Shown here: positions 4,448-29,991 of the stretch, in pieces | How positions within the stretch are numbered: the stretch's first letter is position 1 | Layout: every line of letters starts with the position of its first letter | Virus record (IMG/VR): IMGVR_UViG_3300037107_000046 | Location: 1 to 35,751 of that record | DNA: 35,751 nucleotides | Strand: one strand, 5' to 3' | Origin: a virus | Program-made: the position numbers and the translations under genes | Notes under the pieces: generated by a model | Seen by the model: the letters and a program-made list of their open reading frames with translations, nothing else | Database searches by the model: none | What the model was told of the DNA's origin: nothing

Positions 4448-5106
4448 CGCTCGCCACCGGCCACGTCCTGACCTTCGACCCGGTCGAGCACCGCTACACC
4501 CTCGACGGGCGCTCGGTCCCCGGCGTGACCACGATCATCAATCAGACCATGCGCCGGCCGGAGCTCGAGCGCTTTCGCGAGTGGGTCGGCACGGAAGAGG
4601 CCGACCGCATCCGCGACGAGGCGGCAGAGCACGGCACCCTACTGCACGCTGCCGCCGCAACCATCGCGGCAGACCTCGAGGACATCCCGTTCGGCATGGA
4701 CCCCGGCTTCGCCGAGAGCTACGCCGAGTTCAGCAACTGGTTCACGAGCCAGGTTGACGATGTGATCGCAACCGAGCTGCCCGTCTATGACGCGACGTGG
4801 TGGTACGCCGGCACAGCCGACGCCGTCGTAAAGCTCAAGGGCCGCAAGACGTACGACCTAGCGGATTGGAAGACCACCGCCAAGGTGTACGGCTCAGTGT
4901 TGATGCAGACCGCTGCCTATCGTCACGCAGCCACACAGATGCTCGACGTGAAGATCGGTGGTCGGATCGTCGTTCTGATCCCTCGCCGTCGCGTTGGCCA
5001 GGAACAGCAACCGCTGTCCGTGAACCGCCTCGACAACCACACCGCCGATTGGAACGCGTTCTGCCACGTGCTCAGCCTCTATCGCTGGCAAAGGAGCATG
5101 AAGTGA
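4444..5106 (+). CDS. PD-(D/E)XK nuclease, RecB/exonuclease-like
   Basis: This 220-residue protein has the order expected of RecB-like PD-(D/E)XK nucleases: GTLLHAAAA with His68, YAGTADAVV with Asp126, DLADWKTT with Asp141 and Lys143, then QTAAYRHA with Gln155 and Tyr159. These residues would bind metal and cut phosphodiester bonds. The nearby ATPase and SSB suggest it resects DNA ends for single-strand annealing, as a phage recombination exonuclease does. The GTG start overlaps the previous stop; no better start lies nearby. The alternative is a nuclease against host DNA. Confidence 0.75.
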   Translation: MTLATGHVLTFDPVEHRYTLDGRSVPGVTTIINQTMRRPELERFREWVGTEEADRIRDEAAEHGTLLHAAAATIAADLEDIPFGMDPGFAESYAEFSNWFTSQVDDVIATELPVYDATWWYAGTADAVVKLKGRKTYDLADWKTTAKVYGSVLMQTAAYRHAATQMLDVKIGGRIVVLIPRRRVGQEQQPLSVNRLDNHTADWNAFCHVLSLYRWQRSMK

Positions 5107-7562: not shown

Positions 7563-7957
7563 GCGGGTTCTCTCTCACGCGCCCCGACAAGCTGCCCGAC
7601 CCGCTGCCGATCGCCGTGGTGGCCTCACTCCAGGGCGTCTCACCGGTGACGGTCTACGCATCGTGTCACCGCTTCATGGCGGCCGCTCACAACGACGACA
7701 TCGAGGCGATGCGTCACGCCATCCCCTGCTACATGGAGGGCGGCGGCACGGATGCCGCCGGCAACCGCAAGGGCGGCCGCATCATCATCCCGCGCGACGC
7801 CTTCCTGGCCTACCACCGTACGGCCACGCTGGGCGTGGCGACCATCAAGGAGCTGTACGGGGACCCGCCCAAGCACATGACCATCGAAGAGTTCGACGCC
7901 GAGATCGCCAGGCTGGAGAAGGAAATCACAGAGCGACAGGGCGGTGAGGCGGCATGA
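7559..7957 (+). CDS. helix-turn-helix protein
   Basis: This 132-residue protein has LPIAVVASLQGVSPVTVYAS near residue 20, a helix-turn-helix of excisionase/MerR-like type. Later GGRIIIPRDAFLAYHRTA resembles the wing and following helix of such domains. The last 30 residues (IEEFDAEIARLEKEITERQ) are a probable coiled coil for self-association. ATGA overlaps on both sides place it firmly in the operon. A transcription regulator or a DNA-bridging replication accessory are both possible. Confidence 0.55.
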   Translation: MSGFSLTRPDKLPDPLPIAVVASLQGVSPVTVYASCHRFMAAAHNDDIEAMRHAIPCYMEGGGTDAAGNRKGGRIIIPRDAFLAYHRTATLGVATIKELYGDPPKHMTIEEFDAEIARLEKEITERQGGEAA

Positions 7958-8808
7958 GCGTGGTGGTTGCTCCGTACCAGGCCTACAAGAATCTCTCGCC
8001 GGCCACTGAACGTGCTCTACGCGCGAGCGTCAAGCGATTCGGCATCCTCGTACCCATGGTCAAAGACCAGCACGGGAACGTTCTGGACGGCCACCAGCGC
8101 GCCCGACTGGCCAGCATCCTCGGCGTCGAGTGTCCGAGCGTCACACGACAGGTTGCCGACGAAGACGAGGCCCGCGAGATCGCCCGGACCCTGAACGAAG
8201 ACCGCCGTTCAATGCCGAAGGAACAGCGGCTGCCAGTCGTGCAGGCACTGCGCGAAGAAGGCCACTCCATCCGCGCGATCGCGGGGGCGGTGGGGGTGGA
8301 CGTGCACACCGTGCACGACGATCTCTCAGGTGTTGGGACCCCAACACCTGCCGCCACTCACGGCCTCGACGGCAAGAGCTACCCGGCCCGCCGCACCAAG
8401 ACGACCACGCCACACGAACCCGCGACACCCGTCAAGCACGACAGGAGCCGTGCGGCCGTAGCGGCACGCCATGAACGCATCCGTGGACTGGCGGCGGAGG
8501 GGCACACGGCCGCACAGATCGCTGACCTTGTCGGTCTAGCTCCCGAGGGCGTCAAGATGGCCGCCAAGCGAGACGGAATCAATCTGGCGGCGGACACCGT
8601 GATGCACCACACCCGCCAGCCAAAGGTCGAGCACATTCTTTCCAGGACCGTCGACAATCTGCGAGCTGAGGCAGCCAGCCTGAGCCTGCTGCCTGAAAAC
8701 TACAGCGTTGAGCCCGTGCAGGCTCGCGAATGGGCGCAATCCCTCTACGAGTCACGCACGGCGATCACACGTCTGCTGAACAGACTGAGGAGCATGGGAA
8801 ATGAGTGA
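7954..8808 (+). CDS. ParB-like protein with two HTH regions
   Basis: This 284-residue protein begins with a ParB/sulfiredoxin-like fold: SPATERALRASVKRFGILVP, then GNVLDGHQRARLA (residues 42-53). A first HTH (SIRAIAGAVGVDVHTVHDDL, 105-124) follows, as in ParB proteins. A second HTH-like segment (EGHTAAQIADLVGLAPEGVK, 182-201) and a helical tail complete it. No ParA ATPase is visible, so partition is unproven. Phage ParB-like proteins can also act as nucleases or regulators. Two perfect palindromes lie inside this gene, immediately after the first HTH codons, and could be its own binding sites. It overlaps the next ParB-like gene by eight bases. Confidence 0.65.
   Translation: MSVVVAPYQAYKNLSPATERALRASVKRFGILVPMVKDQHGNVLDGHQRARLASILGVECPSVTRQVADEDEAREIARTLNEDRRSMPKEQRLPVVQALREEGHSIRAIAGAVGVDVHTVHDDLSGVGTPTPAATHGLDGKSYPARRTKTTTPHEPATPVKHDRSRAAVAARHERIRGLAAEGHTAAQIADLVGLAPEGVKMAAKRDGINLAADTVMHHTRQPKVEHILSRTVDNLRAEAASLSLLPENYSVEPVQAREWAQSLYESRTAITRLLNRLRSMGNE
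8301..8350. repeat. two adjacent perfect palindromes inside the ParB-like gene
   Basis: CGTGCAC (8301-8307) is mirrored by GTGCACG (8311-8317) across three bases. Nine bases later CAGGTGTTGGG (8327-8337) is mirrored by CCCAACACCTG (8340-8350) across two bases. Both are perfect. They encode DVHTVHDDLSGVGTPTPA, the end of the first HTH and the start of a linker. Such dyads are typical of dimer-binding sites. Confidence 0.6.
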
Positions 8809-9625
8809 CAACGATCTCTGCGGTCGCACGACATTCGAGCACGTCCGCCTCCAGGATATGCGGGTCGTGCCGCACTGCCAGCGCGAGAACAAGGAGGCGT
8901 TTCAAGCTTCCCTCGCGGAACGAGGGTTCGACCTCGACCTCTTTCACGTCCCGGTTCTTAGTCAGCGCGGGGAGGTCTACCACGTGCTGGATGCCCAGCA
9001 GAGGATCGGAGCCCTGCGCAACTGGCTCGGAGCCGGATGGGAGACGCAGCGCGTCTACTGTCAGGTGTATCACGGCCTGACTGATGAAGAGGAAGCTGCG
9101 ATCTTCCTTGATCTCAACTATCACCTGAACGTTTCGGCCTTCGACAAGTACGACAAGGCTGTGGTCGCGAGGCGCGAACCGGAAGCGACTATCGACGTCA
9201 TCGTAAGGGCTTGCGATCTTCACGTGGCGCGTACGCGCGGTTCCAAGTGTATAGGGGCGGTCGACGCTATCCGCAAAGTCTATGTCTCTGGGAACCGTCA
9301 GATTCTCGCCAAGACGCTGTGCATTCTCTATGACGCCTACGGTGATGCGGGGCTCGAAGGTTGCCTAATCAAGGGCTTCGGGATGCTCTGCCAGCGATAC
9401 AACGGGTCTCTCGATAAGGATGCCGTTGTCGCCAAACTGTCGGCCAGGAAGATGGGCGTCAAGGAGCTTCTTCAGAACGCCGCGACCCTGAAGGAAAAGA
9501 CCGACTGCCAAAAGCCCGTGGCGATAGCTGCTGCTGCGGTCGAGATCATCAACGCCGGCAAGGGCGGCAAGAAGCTCCCGTCGTGGTGGCGTGTCGACAG
9601 TCACGATGGTGAGGCTTCGTCATGA
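8801..9625 (+). CDS. second ParB/sulfiredoxin-like protein
   Basis: This 274-residue protein has VPHCQREN (residues 23-30), a ParB-like QRE signature. It continues with VPVLSQRGEVYHVLDAQQRI then GALRNW (50-75), the nucleotide-binding turn of that fold. The rest is helical with no obvious HTH. It resembles stand-alone ParB-like phage proteins (DUF6551-like), whose job is unclear: DNA binding, CTP/ATP binding or nuclease activity are options. It follows another ParB-like gene directly, which suggests the two act together or arose by duplication and divergence. Confidence 0.6.
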   Translation: MSDNDLCGRTTFEHVRLQDMRVVPHCQRENKEAFQASLAERGFDLDLFHVPVLSQRGEVYHVLDAQQRIGALRNWLGAGWETQRVYCQVYHGLTDEEEAAIFLDLNYHLNVSAFDKYDKAVVARREPEATIDVIVRACDLHVARTRGSKCIGAVDAIRKVYVSGNRQILAKTLCILYDAYGDAGLEGCLIKGFGMLCQRYNGSLDKDAVVAKLSARKMGVKELLQNAATLKEKTDCQKPVAIAAAAVEIINAGKGGKKLPSWWRVDSHDGEASS

Positions 9626-11868: not shown

Positions 11869-12689
11869 ACGCCATCGGCTGGTGCGACGAGACGCTCAAC
11901 CCGATGACGGGTTGCACGAAGGTCAGCGAAGGGTGTCTTAACTGCTACGCGGAACGGATGGCGCGGCGGTTCGAGAAGCCGAAGTGTCCAAACCCCGTCT
12001 GCGGCGATGAGTGTGGACCAGACTGCTACTTCCGGCCCACCTTCCACCCCGAGCGCCTCGACAAGCCGCTGCACTGGCGCAAGCCGCGGAGGATCTTCGT
12101 GGACTCGATGAGCGACCTGTTTCATGAGGCGTTCACCTGGGATCAACGCTGGGACGTCCTCGACGTCGTCGAGAGCTGCCCACAGCACACATTCATCGTG
12201 CTCACGAAGCGGGCGCAGGCCATGCACGACTTCTTTGCTGCCAACGAAGACAGGCAGGGCTGGCCGCCGGCCAACCTCTGGCTCGGCGTCACCGTCGAGA
12301 ACCAGGCCCGCGCCGACGAGCGCATACCGATCCTGCTCGACACCCCGGCGGCGGTGCGGTTCGTCTGCTGCGAGCCCTTACTGTCCGGTGTCGACCTGAG
12401 CGACTACATGCACGACTCGGTCTGTAACCCGGTGCGCCGTGAGAGCGGCTTGTGCATCTGCTCTGAGCCGCGAGAGCGTCACGTCGACTGGGTCATCGTC
12501 GGCGGCGAGAACGGTCCGGGCGCACGGCCGATGCAGCTGGAGTGGGCGCTCGACCTGGTCGACCAGGTCCACCGCGCCAACGTACCTGTGTGGTTCAAGG
12601 GCTGGGGGTCCGCGTCAACGCCACCACCGTTCAAGCCTTACACGCAGCTGGTGGCGATCCGCGAGCTGCCCGCGGTGGGTGCGGGATGA
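11865..12689 (+). CDS. DUF5131 / Gp37-Gp68-like protein
   Basis: This 274-residue protein begins with IGWCDETLNPMTGCTKVSEG followed by CLNCYAERMA. The close group Cys17, Cys24 and Cys27 and the later IFVDSMSDLFHEAF, VLTKRAQAM and WVIVGGENGPGARPM are hallmarks of the DUF5131 family found in many phages and bacteria. The cysteine group recalls radical-SAM-type metal sites, but I see no proof of that chemistry. It lies directly before the helicase-methyltransferase (ATGA overlap), so a role in DNA modification is conceivable. The family's activity is not known to me. Confidence 0.8.
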   Translation: MNAIGWCDETLNPMTGCTKVSEGCLNCYAERMARRFEKPKCPNPVCGDECGPDCYFRPTFHPERLDKPLHWRKPRRIFVDSMSDLFHEAFTWDQRWDVLDVVESCPQHTFIVLTKRAQAMHDFFAANEDRQGWPPANLWLGVTVENQARADERIPILLDTPAAVRFVCCEPLLSGVDLSDYMHDSVCNPVRRESGLCICSEPRERHVDWVIVGGENGPGARPMQLEWALDLVDQVHRANVPVWFKGWGSASTPPPFKPYTQLVAIRELPAVGAG

Positions 12690-14947
12690 GTGACGCGGTC
12701 TACGAGCGGTTTCTCGCCGACCGCATCACGATCGACCACGGCGACGGGTTCAAGGTCGACGAATCGGACGTCAACCCGATGCTGTTCGACTTCCAACGGG
12801 CGCTGGTGGCGTGGGCCTGTGAGAAGGGCCGCGCCGCCATCTTCGCCGACTGCGGCCTTGGCAAAACACCGATTCAGTTGGAGTGGGCGCGGCTTGTTTG
12901 CGAGCGTGCGGGCGGCATCGTCCTCATCGTGGCGCCGCTGGCCGTGGCTGAACAGACCGCTCGTGAGGGCGTCAAGTTCGGCGTGCCGGTCAACGTCTGC
13001 CGCACCGGCGAAGACATCACGCTCGGCGTCAACATCACGAACTATGAAATGCTGGGCCACTTCACGCCGGACGCCCTGGCCGGCATCGTTTTGGACGAGT
13101 CGTCCATTCTCAAGAGTTACGACGGCAAAACGCGCAGCGAGATCATCGCATTCGCCGAGCGGCTGCCCTTCCGGCTGGCCTGCACGGCAACGCCAGCGCC
13201 GAACGATCCCGCCGAACTCTGCAACCACGCCGAGTTTCTCGGCATCATGACCGAGAGCGAAGTCAAGGCGCTGTACTTCACCACGGACGGCACGACGACG
13301 CGCTGGCGTCTCAAAGGCCACTCGCACGAGGACTTCTACCGATGGATGGCGTCGTGGGCCGTAGCGATGCGCAAGCCATCCGACCTCGGATTTAACGACG
13401 GCGCGTTCGAGTTGCCAGCCCTAACCGTCGAAGAGGTCGTGGTTGAGGGGACGAACATCACTCCAGACGCTCTGTTCACGTCCGAGCGTATCGACCTCAA
13501 CGAGCGTCGCAAGGCGCGCAAGGCATCACTAGAGAACCGCGTCTACGCGGCGGCTTCGCTGGCCAACACGGCGCCGGGTCCGTTCATCTGCTGGTGCGAC
13601 CTGAACGCCGAATCCGACGCCCTCACGGCCGCCATCCCAGACGCCGTGGAGGTACGCGGATCGCAGTCGCCACAAGAGAAGGCCGCACGCATCCTGTCGT
13701 TCATCGACGGCGATCACCGCGTGCTGGTCAGCAAGCCGTCAGTCGCGGGATTTGGCCTGAACCTTCAGCACTGTTCCGAGATGGCGTTCGTCGGCCTGTC
13801 TGACAGCTACGAGCAGTTCTATCAGGCCATGCGGCGCTGCTGGCGATTCGGCCAGACGAAGCCGGTGACGGCCTATGTGGTCACGTCCGACGCCGAAGGC
13901 GCGGTAGTGGCCAATGTGAAGCGCAAGGAGAGAGAGGCGACCAAGTCCATGGATCTGATCGTGAAACACACCCGAGATGCCGTGTCGGGTCGCGCCGGCC
14001 GTCAAGAGGCGACCTACCAGGAATGCATCGAGGAGGGTGACAACTGGACGATGATGATGGGCGATTGCGTCGACGTGACCAAGCGCATCGACGACGAATC
14101 GGTCGACTTGTCAGTGTTCAGCCCGCCGTTCCCCGGCATGTACACCTACTCGAACAGCGTGCGAGACATGGGCAACGCGGCCGGCATCGACGACCTCATG
14201 GCCCACTTTGCGTTCCTGGCTCCCGAGCTGCTGCGCGTGACCAAGCCGGGCCGCTCGTGTTTCGTCCACCTGACACAGTACGTCGCCCACATCAACTCGG
14301 ACGGCTTCGCCGGGCTCAAGGACTTTCGTGGCCGCACGATTGAGATGATGCAGGCGGCCGGCTGGCGCTACTACGGCGAGATCACGATCGACAAGAACCC
14401 CCAAGTCAAGGCCATCCGTACGAAAGACCGCGGCCTGCTGTTCAAGACGCTGGCCAACGATTCGTCGATGATGCACGTCGCATTGCCAGACTGGGTCCTG
14501 CACTTCCGCAAGGACGGCGACAACGCCGCGCCGATTCGAGCCGGTATCTCGGAGAAGTACGACAACCCGCACGGATGGATCACGCAGGAGGAGTGGATTC
14601 GCTGGGCACGACCGATCTGGTACGCCCAAGACTGGGCACCTGACGGGGACGGCATCGGCGAGACCGACGTGCTGAATGTCACGGTGGCCCGCGAGTCGGC
14701 CGACGAACGACACATCTGCCCCCTGCAACTGCCCGTCATCGAGCGCATCGTCAAGCTCTGGAGCGCGCCCGGAGAGATGGTGTTCAGCCCGTTTGCCGGC
14801 ATCGGATCTGAGGGCCATGAGGCCGTCCGGCTCGGGCGTCAGTTCACCGGCATAGAGCTCAAGGAAAGCTACTGGCGCACGGCCTGTCGCAACCTGCGCG
14901 ATGCCGAGACGATGCTCGATTGCGGGACGCTGTTCGATGCCAGTTGA
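12686..14947 (+). CDS. SNF2-type helicase fused to a beta-class DNA methyltransferase
   Basis: This 753-residue protein joins two enzymes. Residues about 1-425 are an SF2/SNF2-type ATPase: ADCGLGKT (Walker A, 54-61), VLDESS (135-140), CTATPAPND (166-174), VAGFGLNLQHC (353-363) and MRRCWRFGQ (382-390, motif VI arginines). Residues about 450-753 are an amino-methyltransferase. SPPF (479-482) is the catalytic motif IV, and FSPFAGIGSEG (700-710) is the SAM-binding motif I. The order IV then I makes it beta-class, for N4-cytosine or N6-adenine. No nuclease domain is visible. It could methylate phage DNA while moving along it, protecting against host restriction. The start at 12686 overlaps the DUF5131 stop. 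Confidence 0.82.
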   Translation: MSDAVYERFLADRITIDHGDGFKVDESDVNPMLFDFQRALVAWACEKGRAAIFADCGLGKTPIQLEWARLVCERAGGIVLIVAPLAVAEQTAREGVKFGVPVNVCRTGEDITLGVNITNYEMLGHFTPDALAGIVLDESSILKSYDGKTRSEIIAFAERLPFRLACTATPAPNDPAELCNHAEFLGIMTESEVKALYFTTDGTTTRWRLKGHSHEDFYRWMASWAVAMRKPSDLGFNDGAFELPALTVEEVVVEGTNITPDALFTSERIDLNERRKARKASLENRVYAAASLANTAPGPFICWCDLNAESDALTAAIPDAVEVRGSQSPQEKAARILSFIDGDHRVLVSKPSVAGFGLNLQHCSEMAFVGLSDSYEQFYQAMRRCWRFGQTKPVTAYVVTSDAEGAVVANVKRKEREATKSMDLIVKHTRDAVSGRAGRQEATYQECIEEGDNWTMMMGDCVDVTKRIDDESVDLSVFSPPFPGMYTYSNSVRDMGNAAGIDDLMAHFAFLAPELLRVTKPGRSCFVHLTQYVAHINSDGFAGLKDFRGRTIEMMQAAGWRYYGEITIDKNPQVKAIRTKDRGLLFKTLANDSSMMHVALPDWVLHFRKDGDNAAPIRAGISEKYDNPHGWITQEEWIRWARPIWYAQDWAPDGDGIGETDVLNVTVARESADERHICPLQLPVIERIVKLWSAPGEMVFSPFAGIGSEGHEAVRLGRQFTGIELKESYWRTACRNLRDAETMLDCGTLFDAS

Positions 14948-15143
14948 ACCGACCATCGGCGAGGGCGTGATCGTCGAGGCCTACTACCCCGTCGACGGGC
15001 GAATGGCGAACTGGTGGACTCTGCACTATGGTTCCGAGTTCGTCGGCATCACGCACCGAGGGTCCGGTCAGCGCATGATTATCCCACGTCGGGCGTTCGA
15101 CGTGCTGATCGCTAAATTGCGGGATGCGGACGGGTTTTCGTGA
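14937..15143 (+). CDS. small protein, unknown
   Basis: This 68-residue protein begins MPVEPTIGEGVIVEAYYPVD and looks beta-rich (WWTLHYGSEFVGITH), ending in a helix (AFDVLIAKLRDA). It overlaps the end of the methyltransferase gene by 11 bases and the primase GTG start by four. Sitting between the methyltransferase and the primase-helicase, it may be an accessory of either. No family was recognised. Confidence 0.5.
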   Translation: MPVEPTIGEGVIVEAYYPVDGRMANWWTLHYGSEFVGITHRGSGQRMIIPRRAFDVLIAKLRDADGFS

Positions 15144-16840
15144 CTGTCTCTCTCGACGAACTGCTGACCCGCCTCGAGGCCGTCAAGAAGGCCGGCAACG
15201 GCTTCGTGGCGCGCTGCCCAGCCCATCAGGACCGCTCGCCTTCACTGACGGTCGGCGAAGGCACTGACGGGCGGATCCTAATGAAGTGTCAAGCAGGTTG
15301 TGAGACGCCCGACATCTGCGCGCGACTCAACCTCACGATGGCCGACCTGATGCCCGAGAAGCCCTCGGGCAACGGCTCAGGGAAGCTCGACATCATCGCC
15401 ACCTACGACTACTCAGACGAGCACGGAAAGCTGCTCTACCAGGTCTGCCGCCTCTCGCCGAAGTCGTTTCGTCAGCGTCGACCACAGGGTGAGGGTTGGA
15501 CCTGGAAGCTCGGTGACGTGACCCGCGTGCTGTACCGGCTGCGAGAGGTGCTCGACCAGGCCGATCGCGGCGGTGTCGTCTACGTCGTCGAGGGCGAGAA
15601 GGACGTCGCAGCTGTCGAGCAGGCGGGCGGGGTGGCGACCTGCAACTCGGGCGGCGCCGGCAAGTGGCGCGACGAGTACTCTGCGGCGCTGAAGGGCGCC
15701 CAGGTCGTCGTGGTGGCCGACAACGACGAGCCGGGACGCAAGCACGCGGCGCAGGTGGCGGCCTCGCTGAAAGACGTGGCGGCCTCTGTGGCCGTCGTCA
15801 GCGCCGCGGTGGGCAAGGACGCGGCCGACCATCTGGCGGCCGGCAAGACGCTCGAGCAGTTCGTCAAAGAGGGCGACCCGACGCCGTCCGTGTTCATCGA
15901 CTGGCCCGAGTTCTGGACGACCGACTTCGGCAAGACGGAGTGGCTCTACGACGAGGTCCTGGCGCGCGGCCGAGCTCACGTCATCTACGCCGCCCACAAG
16001 GAAGGCAAGAGCCTCTTCTGCCTGTCGGTCGCGGCCAAGCTTGCCACCGGCGACGAGCCGGTGGTGTGCGTCTACCTCGACTACGAGATGACGCCGGCCG
16101 ACCTGCGCGAACGCCTCGACGACATGGGCTACGGGCCCGGCAGCGACTTCTCCCGCCTGCGCTACTGGCTACTGCCCATGCTACCGCCGCTCGACACGGT
16201 CGCCGGCGGGGTCGAGCTTTGCAAGCTCATCAGCGAGGTCGCGGCGCAGTTCCCCGACCACCACATCGTGACCTTCTTCGACACCATGGGTCGAGCGGTG
16301 GTCGGCAAGGACAACGACGCCGACACGATCCGCGCGTTCTACAACTTCACGGGCCTGCAGCTCAAGCGGATGGGCATCACCTGGGTCCGGCTCGACCACG
16401 AGGGCAAGGACGTCACTCGCGGCCAGCGTGGTACGTCCGCCAAGGGCGACGACGTCGATGTGACCTGGCGGCTCACCAAGAACGAGAGCGGCATCACCCT
16501 GCACCGTGACTCAGCGCGCATGGCGTGGGTGCCCGAGCGAGTCGTCTTCAGCCAGGCAGAGGACCCGCTCACCTACACGCGCTCGACCTCGGATTGGCCG
16601 CTTGGCACGGGCGAGGTCGCCAACATCCTGGACCGCCTCAAGGTACCCGAGGATGCCACCGTAAAGGTCGCCCAGGCGGCCCTGAGAACGATCGACGAAC
16701 AGCGCCGCAGAGCAGTCGTCGGAGCGGCCCTGCGATGGCGCAAGGCACGGACCGACTCAGGCGTGGGAACCGCTGCGGGAACCGCCCGGAACCGTTCCGA
16801 GCCGGTTCCCGGAACCGACGAAGAGACCTTTGACTTTTGA
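15140..16840 (+). CDS. primase-helicase (zinc finger, TOPRIM, RecA-like ATPase)
   Basis: This 566-residue protein combines three parts of the replication machinery. A DnaG-type zinc finger uses Cys26, His29, Cys50 and Cys54 (CPAHQDRSPSLTV, KCQAGC). A TOPRIM domain has VVEGEKD (149-155) and ADNDEPG (193-199), whose acidic residues bind metal for RNA primer synthesis. A RecA-fold ATPase has a variant Walker A, AAHKEGKS (284-291), and VYLDYEM (311-317), resembling RepA/AAA_25 helicases. The last 30 residues are a Gly/Thr/Arg/Asn-rich tail whose DNA carries GGAACCG boxes continuing past the stop. The gene therefore seems to overlap a replication origin. GTGA overlap gives the start at 15140. Confidence 0.85.
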   Translation: MTVSLDELLTRLEAVKKAGNGFVARCPAHQDRSPSLTVGEGTDGRILMKCQAGCETPDICARLNLTMADLMPEKPSGNGSGKLDIIATYDYSDEHGKLLYQVCRLSPKSFRQRRPQGEGWTWKLGDVTRVLYRLREVLDQADRGGVVYVVEGEKDVAAVEQAGGVATCNSGGAGKWRDEYSAALKGAQVVVVADNDEPGRKHAAQVAASLKDVAASVAVVSAAVGKDAADHLAAGKTLEQFVKEGDPTPSVFIDWPEFWTTDFGKTEWLYDEVLARGRAHVIYAAHKEGKSLFCLSVAAKLATGDEPVVCVYLDYEMTPADLRERLDDMGYGPGSDFSRLRYWLLPMLPPLDTVAGGVELCKLISEVAAQFPDHHIVTFFDTMGRAVVGKDNDADTIRAFYNFTGLQLKRMGITWVRLDHEGKDVTRGQRGTSAKGDDVDVTWRLTKNESGITLHRDSARMAWVPERVVFSQAEDPLTYTRSTSDWPLGTGEVANILDRLKVPEDATVKVAQAALRTIDEQRRRAVVGAALRWRKARTDSGVGTAAGTARNRSEPVPGTDEETFDF

Positions 16841-16937
16841 GACTGGGAACCGCTTGGGAACTGCCCGGAACCGCTTTGCGCGGCATGAGGGGCCAGAGGG
16901 TCACCCCTTTAGGGGTGCCCCTGCCCAGCCGGAACCG
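16766..16937. repeat. cluster of nine GGAACCG boxes, candidate replication origin
   Basis: GGAACCG occurs on the + strand at 16766, 16778, 16788, 16811, 16846, 16867 and 16931, with a one-mismatch copy at 16857 and an inverted copy CGGTTCC at 16803. The inverted and direct copies at 16803-16817 form a perfect dyad with a one-base centre. Several neighbours are spaced 10-12 bases apart, about one helical turn. The array begins inside the end of the primase-helicase gene and continues through the noncoding DNA after it. Iterons near a replication gene are a classic origin layout; a regulator array is the alternative. Confidence 0.6.
16902..16917. repeat. short perfect hairpin within the iteron region
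   Basis: CACCCCT (16902-16908) pairs with AGGGGTG (16911-16917) across two bases. It lies between the eighth and ninth GGAACCG boxes in noncoding DNA after the primase-helicase. No T-run follows, so a terminator is unlikely; an origin structural element is possible. The rest of the gap to 17052 shows no further structure that I can support. Confidence 0.4.
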
Positions 16938-28343: not shown

Positions 28344-28868
28344 ATGATCGGCATCTACGCCGTCAGTCTGGATGGCGAGGACTTCAAAGTGCTACGGCTT
28401 GACGGGGTCGATATCGAAGCTCTGCCCGTCTCGTTTTCGGGTGTGCTCTCAGGCGTCGCCCTGCCCACCGGGCAGCAGAACACGGCGGGCTCGGTGCCCG
28501 TCACCATGGCCTCAGACCAGCCGCCCATCGGCATCGCCGAGGCCGGCGCGGCAGTCGCGGGATTCGACTCCGAGGCCGGCGCCACGGCGCACCACCAGCT
28601 CATCGCCGCGCAGGGCGGCACGGAGGTCGTCTACGTGCGCGGCCTGACGGTCTTCAACGCCGCCACGGCGCCCATCACGTTGCAGCTCGAAACAGACACG
28701 GGTGGCGCCCACACGGCCATCTCGCCGGCCTTCCCAGTGCCGGCCGGTGGCAGCATCAACCTGGTCTTCGGCGGACCCGGCCTGCCCGGCGCCGCCAACA
28801 AGAACGTGGGCTACTCATCGGTCGGCGCCAGCGCCTTCTCGGTGGTTGCGAACGGGGTCGCTCGGTGA
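28344..28868 (+). CDS. structural protein, unknown
   Basis: This 174-residue protein (ATG at 28344 after GAGAGGAG) is beta-rich and Gly/Ala-rich, with QQNTAGSVPVTMASDQPPIG and a C-terminal half like a beta-sandwich (VFNAATAPITLQLETDTGGA). It lies between the capsid and head-completion genes, so a head or head-tail structural role is likely. No family was recognised with confidence. The frame also opens at 28290, but that part overlaps the hairpin and has no ribosome-binding site. Confidence 0.55.
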   Translation: MIGIYAVSLDGEDFKVLRLDGVDIEALPVSFSGVLSGVALPTGQQNTAGSVPVTMASDQPPIGIAEAGAAVAGFDSEAGATAHHQLIAAQGGTEVVYVRGLTVFNAATAPITLQLETDTGGAHTAISPAFPVPAGGSINLVFGGPGLPGAANKNVGYSSVGASAFSVVANGVAR

Positions 28869-29380
28869 GCGACAACGACGTCAGTGTCGACATCGTGGTT
28901 CCGCAGCCCGTCGTGCGCGCCGAGATCCCACCCGTCGCGGACCCGCATCGCTACCCGATCCTGCCGGTCGACTTGCTCGCCTACATGCCGCAGGGCATCA
29001 CGATCGACGACACGACCACGCCCTCGACGGCCGACGTGCAGCTGATGATTACCAACGTCTGCGACCGCATCAACGGCGTCCTCAACAGCCGCGGTTTCGC
29101 CATGCCTCTGCAGACGGCACTGATTGACTCCGCTGGCCTGAGCTTCCTGAACACCTGTTGCACCTACGGCGTGATCGCCCGTTGGGCTCGCACCAAGTAC
29201 CCCTCGGACACCGGCCCAGGCGGCTCGAAGGGATTTTCCGAGGACTACAGCAAGATGTTCGAGGACTTCCTCAAGCAGATCACGGCTGGGGCAATCTCGC
29301 TGCCCGAGGAACCTCGCGCTGTCGTCTCGCACGGTTTCGGCGACGGGCCCACAGACTTCCACGACGATATGAGGTTCTGA
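28865..29380 (+). CDS. head-tail connector (gp36/DUF1320-like)
   Basis: This 171-residue protein starts at a GTG overlapping the previous stop. It has YPILPVDLLAYMPQGITIDD, TADVQLMITNVCDRINGVLN and LSFLNTCCTYGVIARWARTK, a helical layout close to Mu gp36/DUF1320-type head-completion proteins. These sit under the portal and link head to tail. The position just after head genes supports this. Confidence 0.65.
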   Translation: MSDNDVSVDIVVPQPVVRAEIPPVADPHRYPILPVDLLAYMPQGITIDDTTTPSTADVQLMITNVCDRINGVLNSRGFAMPLQTALIDSAGLSFLNTCCTYGVIARWARTKYPSDTGPGGSKGFSEDYSKMFEDFLKQITAGAISLPEEPRAVVSHGFGDGPTDFHDDMRF

Positions 29381-29991
29381 TGCCCGCCTCGGCCTCCGCA
29401 CCCGGCATGGGCGTGCTGTTCAATTGGGATCCGCCGCTGCCCGAGTTCCACGTCGAGATGAACCGCTTCGCCGACGGCATCAGCGACTTCACGGCGCTGT
29501 TCGCCGAGATCGGCGGCCTCTTCAAGCAGGATATGGCGGCGCAGTTCGTCACCGAGGGCGCGACGTCAGGCGACACCTGGGCGCCGCTCTCAACGGCCTA
29601 CGCCGCCTGGAAGGCCAAGCACTATCCCGGGCGCGGCATCGGCTTCGCCTCTGGTGCCGGCATGCAGTCGCTCACCGGCGGCGCCGGCTACACCGAGATC
29701 ATCACGCCGACGACGGCCGAGTTCGGCCAGTCAGACGGCGCCACGAGCACCCCGGACGGCAGCTACATGGCGTTCTTCGACAAGGGCTGGAGTCACGCCT
29801 CGGATGGGGCGCACGCGCCGGCGCGGCCGATCATGCGCTTCACCGCAGCCTGGGGTCGCACCTGGTCGGCGCTCACGGCGCGCTGGGTGCGCACAGAGGC
29901 CCACCACGCCGGCCTGTTGGGTACTGGCTCGAAGACTTTCAACCAGCCGCTCTCCGACCTCTCCTACACCGACACGCTGCCCAGCACATGA
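29380..29991 (+). CDS. virion morphogenesis protein (Mu G-like)
   Basis: This 203-residue protein (start TGATG overlap) has DMAAQFVTEGATSGDTWAPL, then STAYAAWKAKHYPGRGIG, ARPIMRFTAAWGRTWSAL and W-R regions matching phage virion morphogenesis proteins of the Mu gpG/tail-completion type. Such proteins join the head-tail interface or finish the tail. It has the usual place between connector and neck genes. Confidence 0.72.
   Translation: MPASASAPGMGVLFNWDPPLPEFHVEMNRFADGISDFTALFAEIGGLFKQDMAAQFVTEGATSGDTWAPLSTAYAAWKAKHYPGRGIGFASGAGMQSLTGGAGYTEIITPTTAEFGQSDGATSTPDGSYMAFFDKGWSHASDGAHAPARPIMRFTAAWGRTWSALTARWVRTEAHHAGLLGTGSKTFNQPLSDLSYTDTLPST

Follow-up and report, generated by a model that had tools for sequence, protein, structure and literature searches.

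The C-terminal domains of the initiator helicases SaPI Rep and SCCmec Cch2 have been found by experiment to read short iterons that lie directly downstream of the helicase's own gene (PMC7581432). RSF1010 combines a RepA-type helicase with iterons and with stem-loops where primers start, and pRN1 encodes a primase-helicase, ORF904, whose C-terminal domain binds DNA, and has its origin just behind that gene, an arrangement in which structure is kept and sequence varies (both PMC4234260). Iterons can also lie within a replication gene, as they do in lambda O (PMC11447400).

Here we analysed a complete virus record of 35,751 bases (IMG/VR IMGVR_UViG_3300037107_000046; hereafter the window), in which an array of GGAACCG boxes spans the stop codon of a primase-helicase gene; together with a palindrome, this array is probably an iteron-type replication origin, its iterons putatively recognised by the C-terminal domain of the helicase itself. 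As in the SaPI Rep–ori pair, the short iterons lie at and after the 3′ end of an initiator-helicase gene; unlike in SaPI, the array extends into the coding region and is accompanied by a palindrome at a set distance, and binding by the C-terminal domain is a proposal drawn from sequence and a structural model. The helicase type also differs, SaPI Rep and Cch2 being DUF927-like and D5/Primase_Cterm-like whereas the window helicase is of the RecA/RepA-like type and carries a Toprim primase in the same chain, so that the window protein is not a SaPI Rep by family. The likeness to RSF1010 lies in the RecA/KaiC-type ATPase domain of the window helicase, which is related to RepA (1g8y, 1olo); in RSF1010, however, three separate proteins serve as helicase, primase and iteron reader, whereas in the window primase and helicase form one chain whose C-terminal domain is the proposed reader. 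By analogy, the window system would unite a SaPI-like layout with an RSF1010-like helicase, iterons and stem-loop in a single chain. pRN1 ORF904 differs in its archaeo-eukaryotic primase, SF3 helicase and large stem-loop, and in the absence of iterons. As in lambda O, the window's iterons lie inside a replication gene; lambda O itself is a separate initiator without helicase activity. P4 alpha, like the window protein, has a Toprim-type primase fused to a helicase (PMC4234260), but that helicase is of the SF3 type and the window's is AAA_25/RepA-like.

The gene (15140–16840, plus strand) encodes a Zn-ribbon and Toprim primase part, a RecA/RepA-like helicase domain, a C-terminal domain and a tail; Pfam recognised AAA_25, Toprim and Zn ribbon in the protein and returned no D5 or DUF927 match. 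Profile and Foldseek matches placed the helicase domain at approximately 15893–16588 (plus strand): RSF1010 RepA (1g8y) matched with a profile E of 2.3e-6 and is, RecA fusions aside, the closest solved relative by sequence, while Foldseek matched 1olo with an E of 2e-9 and a TM of 0.51 by query length, and KaiC was also matched. Behind it, an AlphaFold model predicts a three-helix domain (about 16607–16756, plus strand; helices at residues 239–248, 257–265 and 273–288 of the modelled fragment, with pLDDT mostly 91–97 across the block), our candidate for the box reader. Searched alone, this domain gave no significant Foldseek match; its best VIA score was to a ribosomal protein (Z 5.0), and Fur, ArgR and homeodomains scored near Z 3–4, a weak HTH-like resemblance, both of which we treated as uninformative. 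The tail (16763–16837, plus strand), for which the first half of the array codes, is predicted to be disordered, with pLDDT below 50 across residues 291–315 of the fragment; as the tail starts at about 16763 and the first box at 16766, the array begins where the protein fold ends.

The array occupies 16766–16937. Our recount agrees with the sequence-only reading, which had reported nine boxes in these 172 bases: eight are exact copies of GGAACCG, seven direct (plus-strand starts at 16766, 16778, 16788, 16811, 16846, 16867 and 16931) and one inverted (minus strand, 16803–16809), and the ninth is a one-mismatch box, GGAACTG, at 16857. That reading had put several of the box spacings at 10–12 bases, and two triplets measure accordingly: triplet A (16766–16794, plus strand), with boxes at 16766, 16778 and 16788 spaced 12+10, and the noncoding triplet B (16846–16873, plus strand), with boxes at 16846, 16857 (GGAACTG) and 16867 spaced 11+10. 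Between them, the inverted box and one direct box form a dyad, CGGTTCC-C-GGAACCG (CGGTTCCCGGAACCG; 16803–16817, strand-neutral), which proved as exact on re-reading as it had been described, and the perfect 7-bp hairpin said to lie between the last two boxes was found at 16902–16917 (CACCCCT-TT-AGGGGTG). This hairpin is the inner part of a strand-neutral palindrome, AGGGTCACCCCT-TT-AGGGGTGCCCCT (16897–16922), which pairs at 11 of 12 positions in the extended form and is centred 64 bp from the start of triplet B; the final box (16931–16937, plus strand) lies beyond it. The helicase stop codon (16838–16840) falls inside the array, with five exact boxes coding and three downstream, so that the array does span the last primase-helicase codons and the noncoding DNA that follows, as had been claimed.

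Chance does not account for the GGAACCG cluster. Across the 35,751 bp the box occurs 13 times exactly, against a mean chance expectation of 6.15 for the whole window; 8 of the 13 copies lie inside the 172 bp and the remaining five match chance, and the genome-wide count that had been suggested as a check thus brought out no second cluster. The top 7-mer count per 172-bp stretch reached only 3–6 in 100 dinucleotide shuffles, and elsewhere in the window no 7-mer exceeds four copies in such a stretch. The GC-skew inflection that had been suggested for this position did not appear, cumulative skew being flat around the array and uninformative, and the array sequence contains no AT-rich unwinding element. 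Elsewhere in the window, two ParB-like genes lie adjacent at 7954–9622, the second of which (DUF6551) contains GGAACCG twice, in opposite orientations, at 9238 and 9291; in a single open frame at 12542–14947, an N6/N4 DNA methylase domain is fused to a phage DNA helicase (Helicase_C).

By alignment search we obtained 215 relatives; 80 of these were kept, and 36 non-redundant loci were analysed. The array stands at the same place in L003 (56% identity), L007 (68%, with all boxes reading GGAAACG) and L008 (55%), and at 25 of the 36 loci no background window of the locus has as many copies of a 7-mer as the cluster around the helicase stop. Arrays are shorter, degenerate, tied or outdone by another repeat of the locus in L003, L130, L141, L149, L158, L183, L187 and L191, and three loci with a similar C-terminal segment (L140, L155 and L195) lack an array both at the gene end and in the rest of the locus. 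The box is uniform within a locus and differs between lineages (GGGAACCG, GGGAAACG, GGGACGCG, CGGGACAC, GGGGACCA and others); box-core identity is 5.9 of 6 within a locus, a figure partly built in because triplets were picked for likeness, but 3.6 of 6 when boxes at the equivalent place in different loci are compared. The earlier expectation that the array would be conserved beside the primase-helicase genes of relatives therefore held for position, spacing and within-locus uniformity and failed for the letters GGAACCG themselves.

A protein-independent scan of viral contigs for GGAACC triplets led to a further locus, L081, with an array directly behind a related helicase; among the matches listed, most are not beside such a helicase. 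The cleanest check, although the sample is small, comes from a helicase profile search of 396 Actinomycetota genomes unselected for arrays, the other statistics having been set after the first arrays were seen. Five prophages besides the known one carry the helicase in these genomes; an array and palindrome were recognised by reading in all five, and four of the five passed the count test. In the cultured relative Streptomyces phage mu1/6 (gp21, 34% identity), ten GGGCAGG/CCTGCCC boxes and a hairpin lie in the 3′ part of the helicase gene, as in the window but with a different box sequence; no origin is annotated here in the mu1/6 record. Such arrays are nowhere described in the literature covered, which took in few subscription journals, and an earlier account, for example of mu1/6, is possible.

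No array was read at the gene ends of the Arthrobacter phages L005 and L006, which matched via the primase part, or at the 3′ end of Corynephage BFK20 gp43, a distant RepA-like protein with a profile match to the ATPase part only, and PLSDB plasmids contained no relative of the helicase. In BFK20 (L215), CTGGAAC occurs 11–12 times within 800 bp around ORF39 (about 28400–29600 of the record), away from the primase gene, possibly an array of another kind. L195 has a perfect 28-bp A+T-rich palindrome, GAAGATTATTGTAATTACAATAATCTTC, immediately after the helicase stop (4909–4937), and in L130 a long tandem repeat (period 11 bases) lies at about 8140–8290, about 3 kb past the stop. Many viral contigs of ~30–36 kb (L133, L139, L141, L142, L158, L164 and others) end 400–1000 bases past the helicase stop, suggesting that the array may sit near the genome end in those phages. 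In L003 and L004 the helicase domain is preceded, by eye, by an N-terminal part other than the Toprim primase; the array thus appears to travel with the helicase and C-terminal domains.

The geometry of the boxes recurs more faithfully than their letters. Near the stop, 27 spaced triplets (12+10, sometimes 11+10) were counted over the 36 loci, where a Markov shuffle predicts about 0.002 per region; another 27 matches fall outside the stop region, 18 of which come from a single tandem repeat. Measured from triplet start to palindrome centre, the distance is 64–68 bp in 12 loci and 73 in L133, taken in the window and L007 at triplet B, which in the window includes the one-mismatch box. Many loci also have their own box within the arms of the palindrome. 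TA is often found at the palindrome centre, which is not an independent finding since the automatic choice of palindromes required TA.

Comparison with the nearest relative, L007, joins the array to the 3′ part of the gene. The two are up to 100% identical at 15300–15700, which covers much of the primase part, and about 100% identical from 16975 to about 17200; the intervening block (about 15775 to about 16970, plus strand, limits approximate), comprising helicase domain, C-terminal domain, array and palindrome, is 66–85% identical, with GGAAACG in place of GGAACCG. This is the trace expected of an initiator–origin pair exchanged by recombination, although we infer both the event and its direction from the alignment. 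Across loci, box similarity tracks C-terminal-domain similarity given the ATPase domain (partial Mantel r 0.19, p 0.017; a modest correlation, with phylogeny partly corrected and boxes registered by eye), versus p 0.20 for ATPase similarity given the C-terminal domain, and the strongest Mantel windows are at residues 241–290 of the modelled fragment. In the neighbourhoods of the 36 loci, mostly about 5 kb, no real gene family besides the helicase occurs in more than 8 of 36, families antisense to the helicase gene being discounted. Predicted fold, covariation and the divergence shared with the array hint indirectly that the three-helix domain may bind the boxes.

The boxes in the coding region share neither a single reading frame nor a single strand; in most relatives the array is entirely within the helicase coding region, tens of bases upstream of the stop, and in the window, L003, L007, L008, L129, L133 and L081 boxes run beyond the stop. 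Their presence in all frames and behind stops indicates selection on the DNA, not on the protein, and, with the tail predicted disordered from the end of the fold, lends good support to the proposal of the sequence-only reading that the repetitive tail is a by-product of a DNA site: the last ~25 codons would be disordered because the origin site overlaps the gene end. It is hardly credible that the repeats instead encode a Gly-Thr tail selected as protein, or represent neutral, low-complexity DNA; five of the eight exact boxes do lie in coding sequence, but the 12+10 spacing breaks frame, and the frames, inverted copies and boxes behind stops led us to reject a protein-level Gly-Thr repeat. 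An operator or RNA element controlling the helicase operon or the downstream genes would suit a hairpin-bearing array between two same-direction genes, but is improbable: we found no promoter-like or terminator-like site at the array, no T run beyond 16922 that would mark an intrinsic terminator and no Rfam match, the array of relatives is mostly inside the coding region with varying genes downstream, and rigid DNA spacing with changing sequence better suits a nucleoprotein complex than an RNA.

Direct repeats beside such a gene can also serve partition, as the mycobacteriophages Miko and Rachaly have a direct-repeat parS just downstream of repA (PMC7157519), and the window does encode the two ParB-like genes at 7954–9622; yet a partition centromere of parS-like repeats bound by ParB is very unlikely here, since no ParB-like family is common to the array neighbourhoods within about 5 kb, ParA was not recognised in the subset of window proteins scanned, and the array accompanies the helicase across hosts and gene orders. 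There is an outside chance that the array is an origin read by another protein, either a host factor or a phage initiator whose gene lies elsewhere, which recruits the helicase in the manner of RSF1010 RepC and RepA or of lambda O. RSF1010 RepA, the closest solved relative apart from RecA fusions, does use RepC as iteron reader (PMC4234260), and the window's C-terminal domain has no confident match to a DNA-binding fold; but within the roughly 5 kb covered at most loci no other family turns up beside more than 8 of the 36 arrays, although a more distantly encoded binder is conceivable, a host factor would leave unexplained why boxes change with the helicase block between close relatives, and box similarity best tracks the C-terminal domain.

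A candidate iteron-type origin beside a replication gene, as the sequence-only reading had it, is thus the best-supported account, there being no second cluster in the window and the array being conserved beside the helicases of relatives. Such an origin would be encoded in cis with its initiator, the primase-helicase, which would grip the boxes through its small C-terminal three-helix domain, so that a helicase hexamer might assemble on the box triplets. The DNA would then be opened, presumably at or beside the palindrome, the helicase would load itself onto the opened DNA, and primers would be begun by the fused Toprim domain or perhaps by a host primase.

A broader reading, towards which we are somewhat sceptical, is of an actinobacterial phage family with a self-contained initiator–origin module, comprising a RepA-like helicase, a small C-terminal reader, 12+10 iteron triplets and a palindrome at 64–68 bp, in which reader and boxes would change together and fast and many mutually exclusive origin types would be exchanged as blocks by recombination. 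If true, this would provide a simple rule for locating replication origins in many actinobacterial phages and prophages that are uncultured. It would also offer a natural series of readers with their sites, from which a small DNA-binding domain's recognition code might be derived, and sets of compatible origin–initiator pairs for plasmid tools in Actinomycetota.
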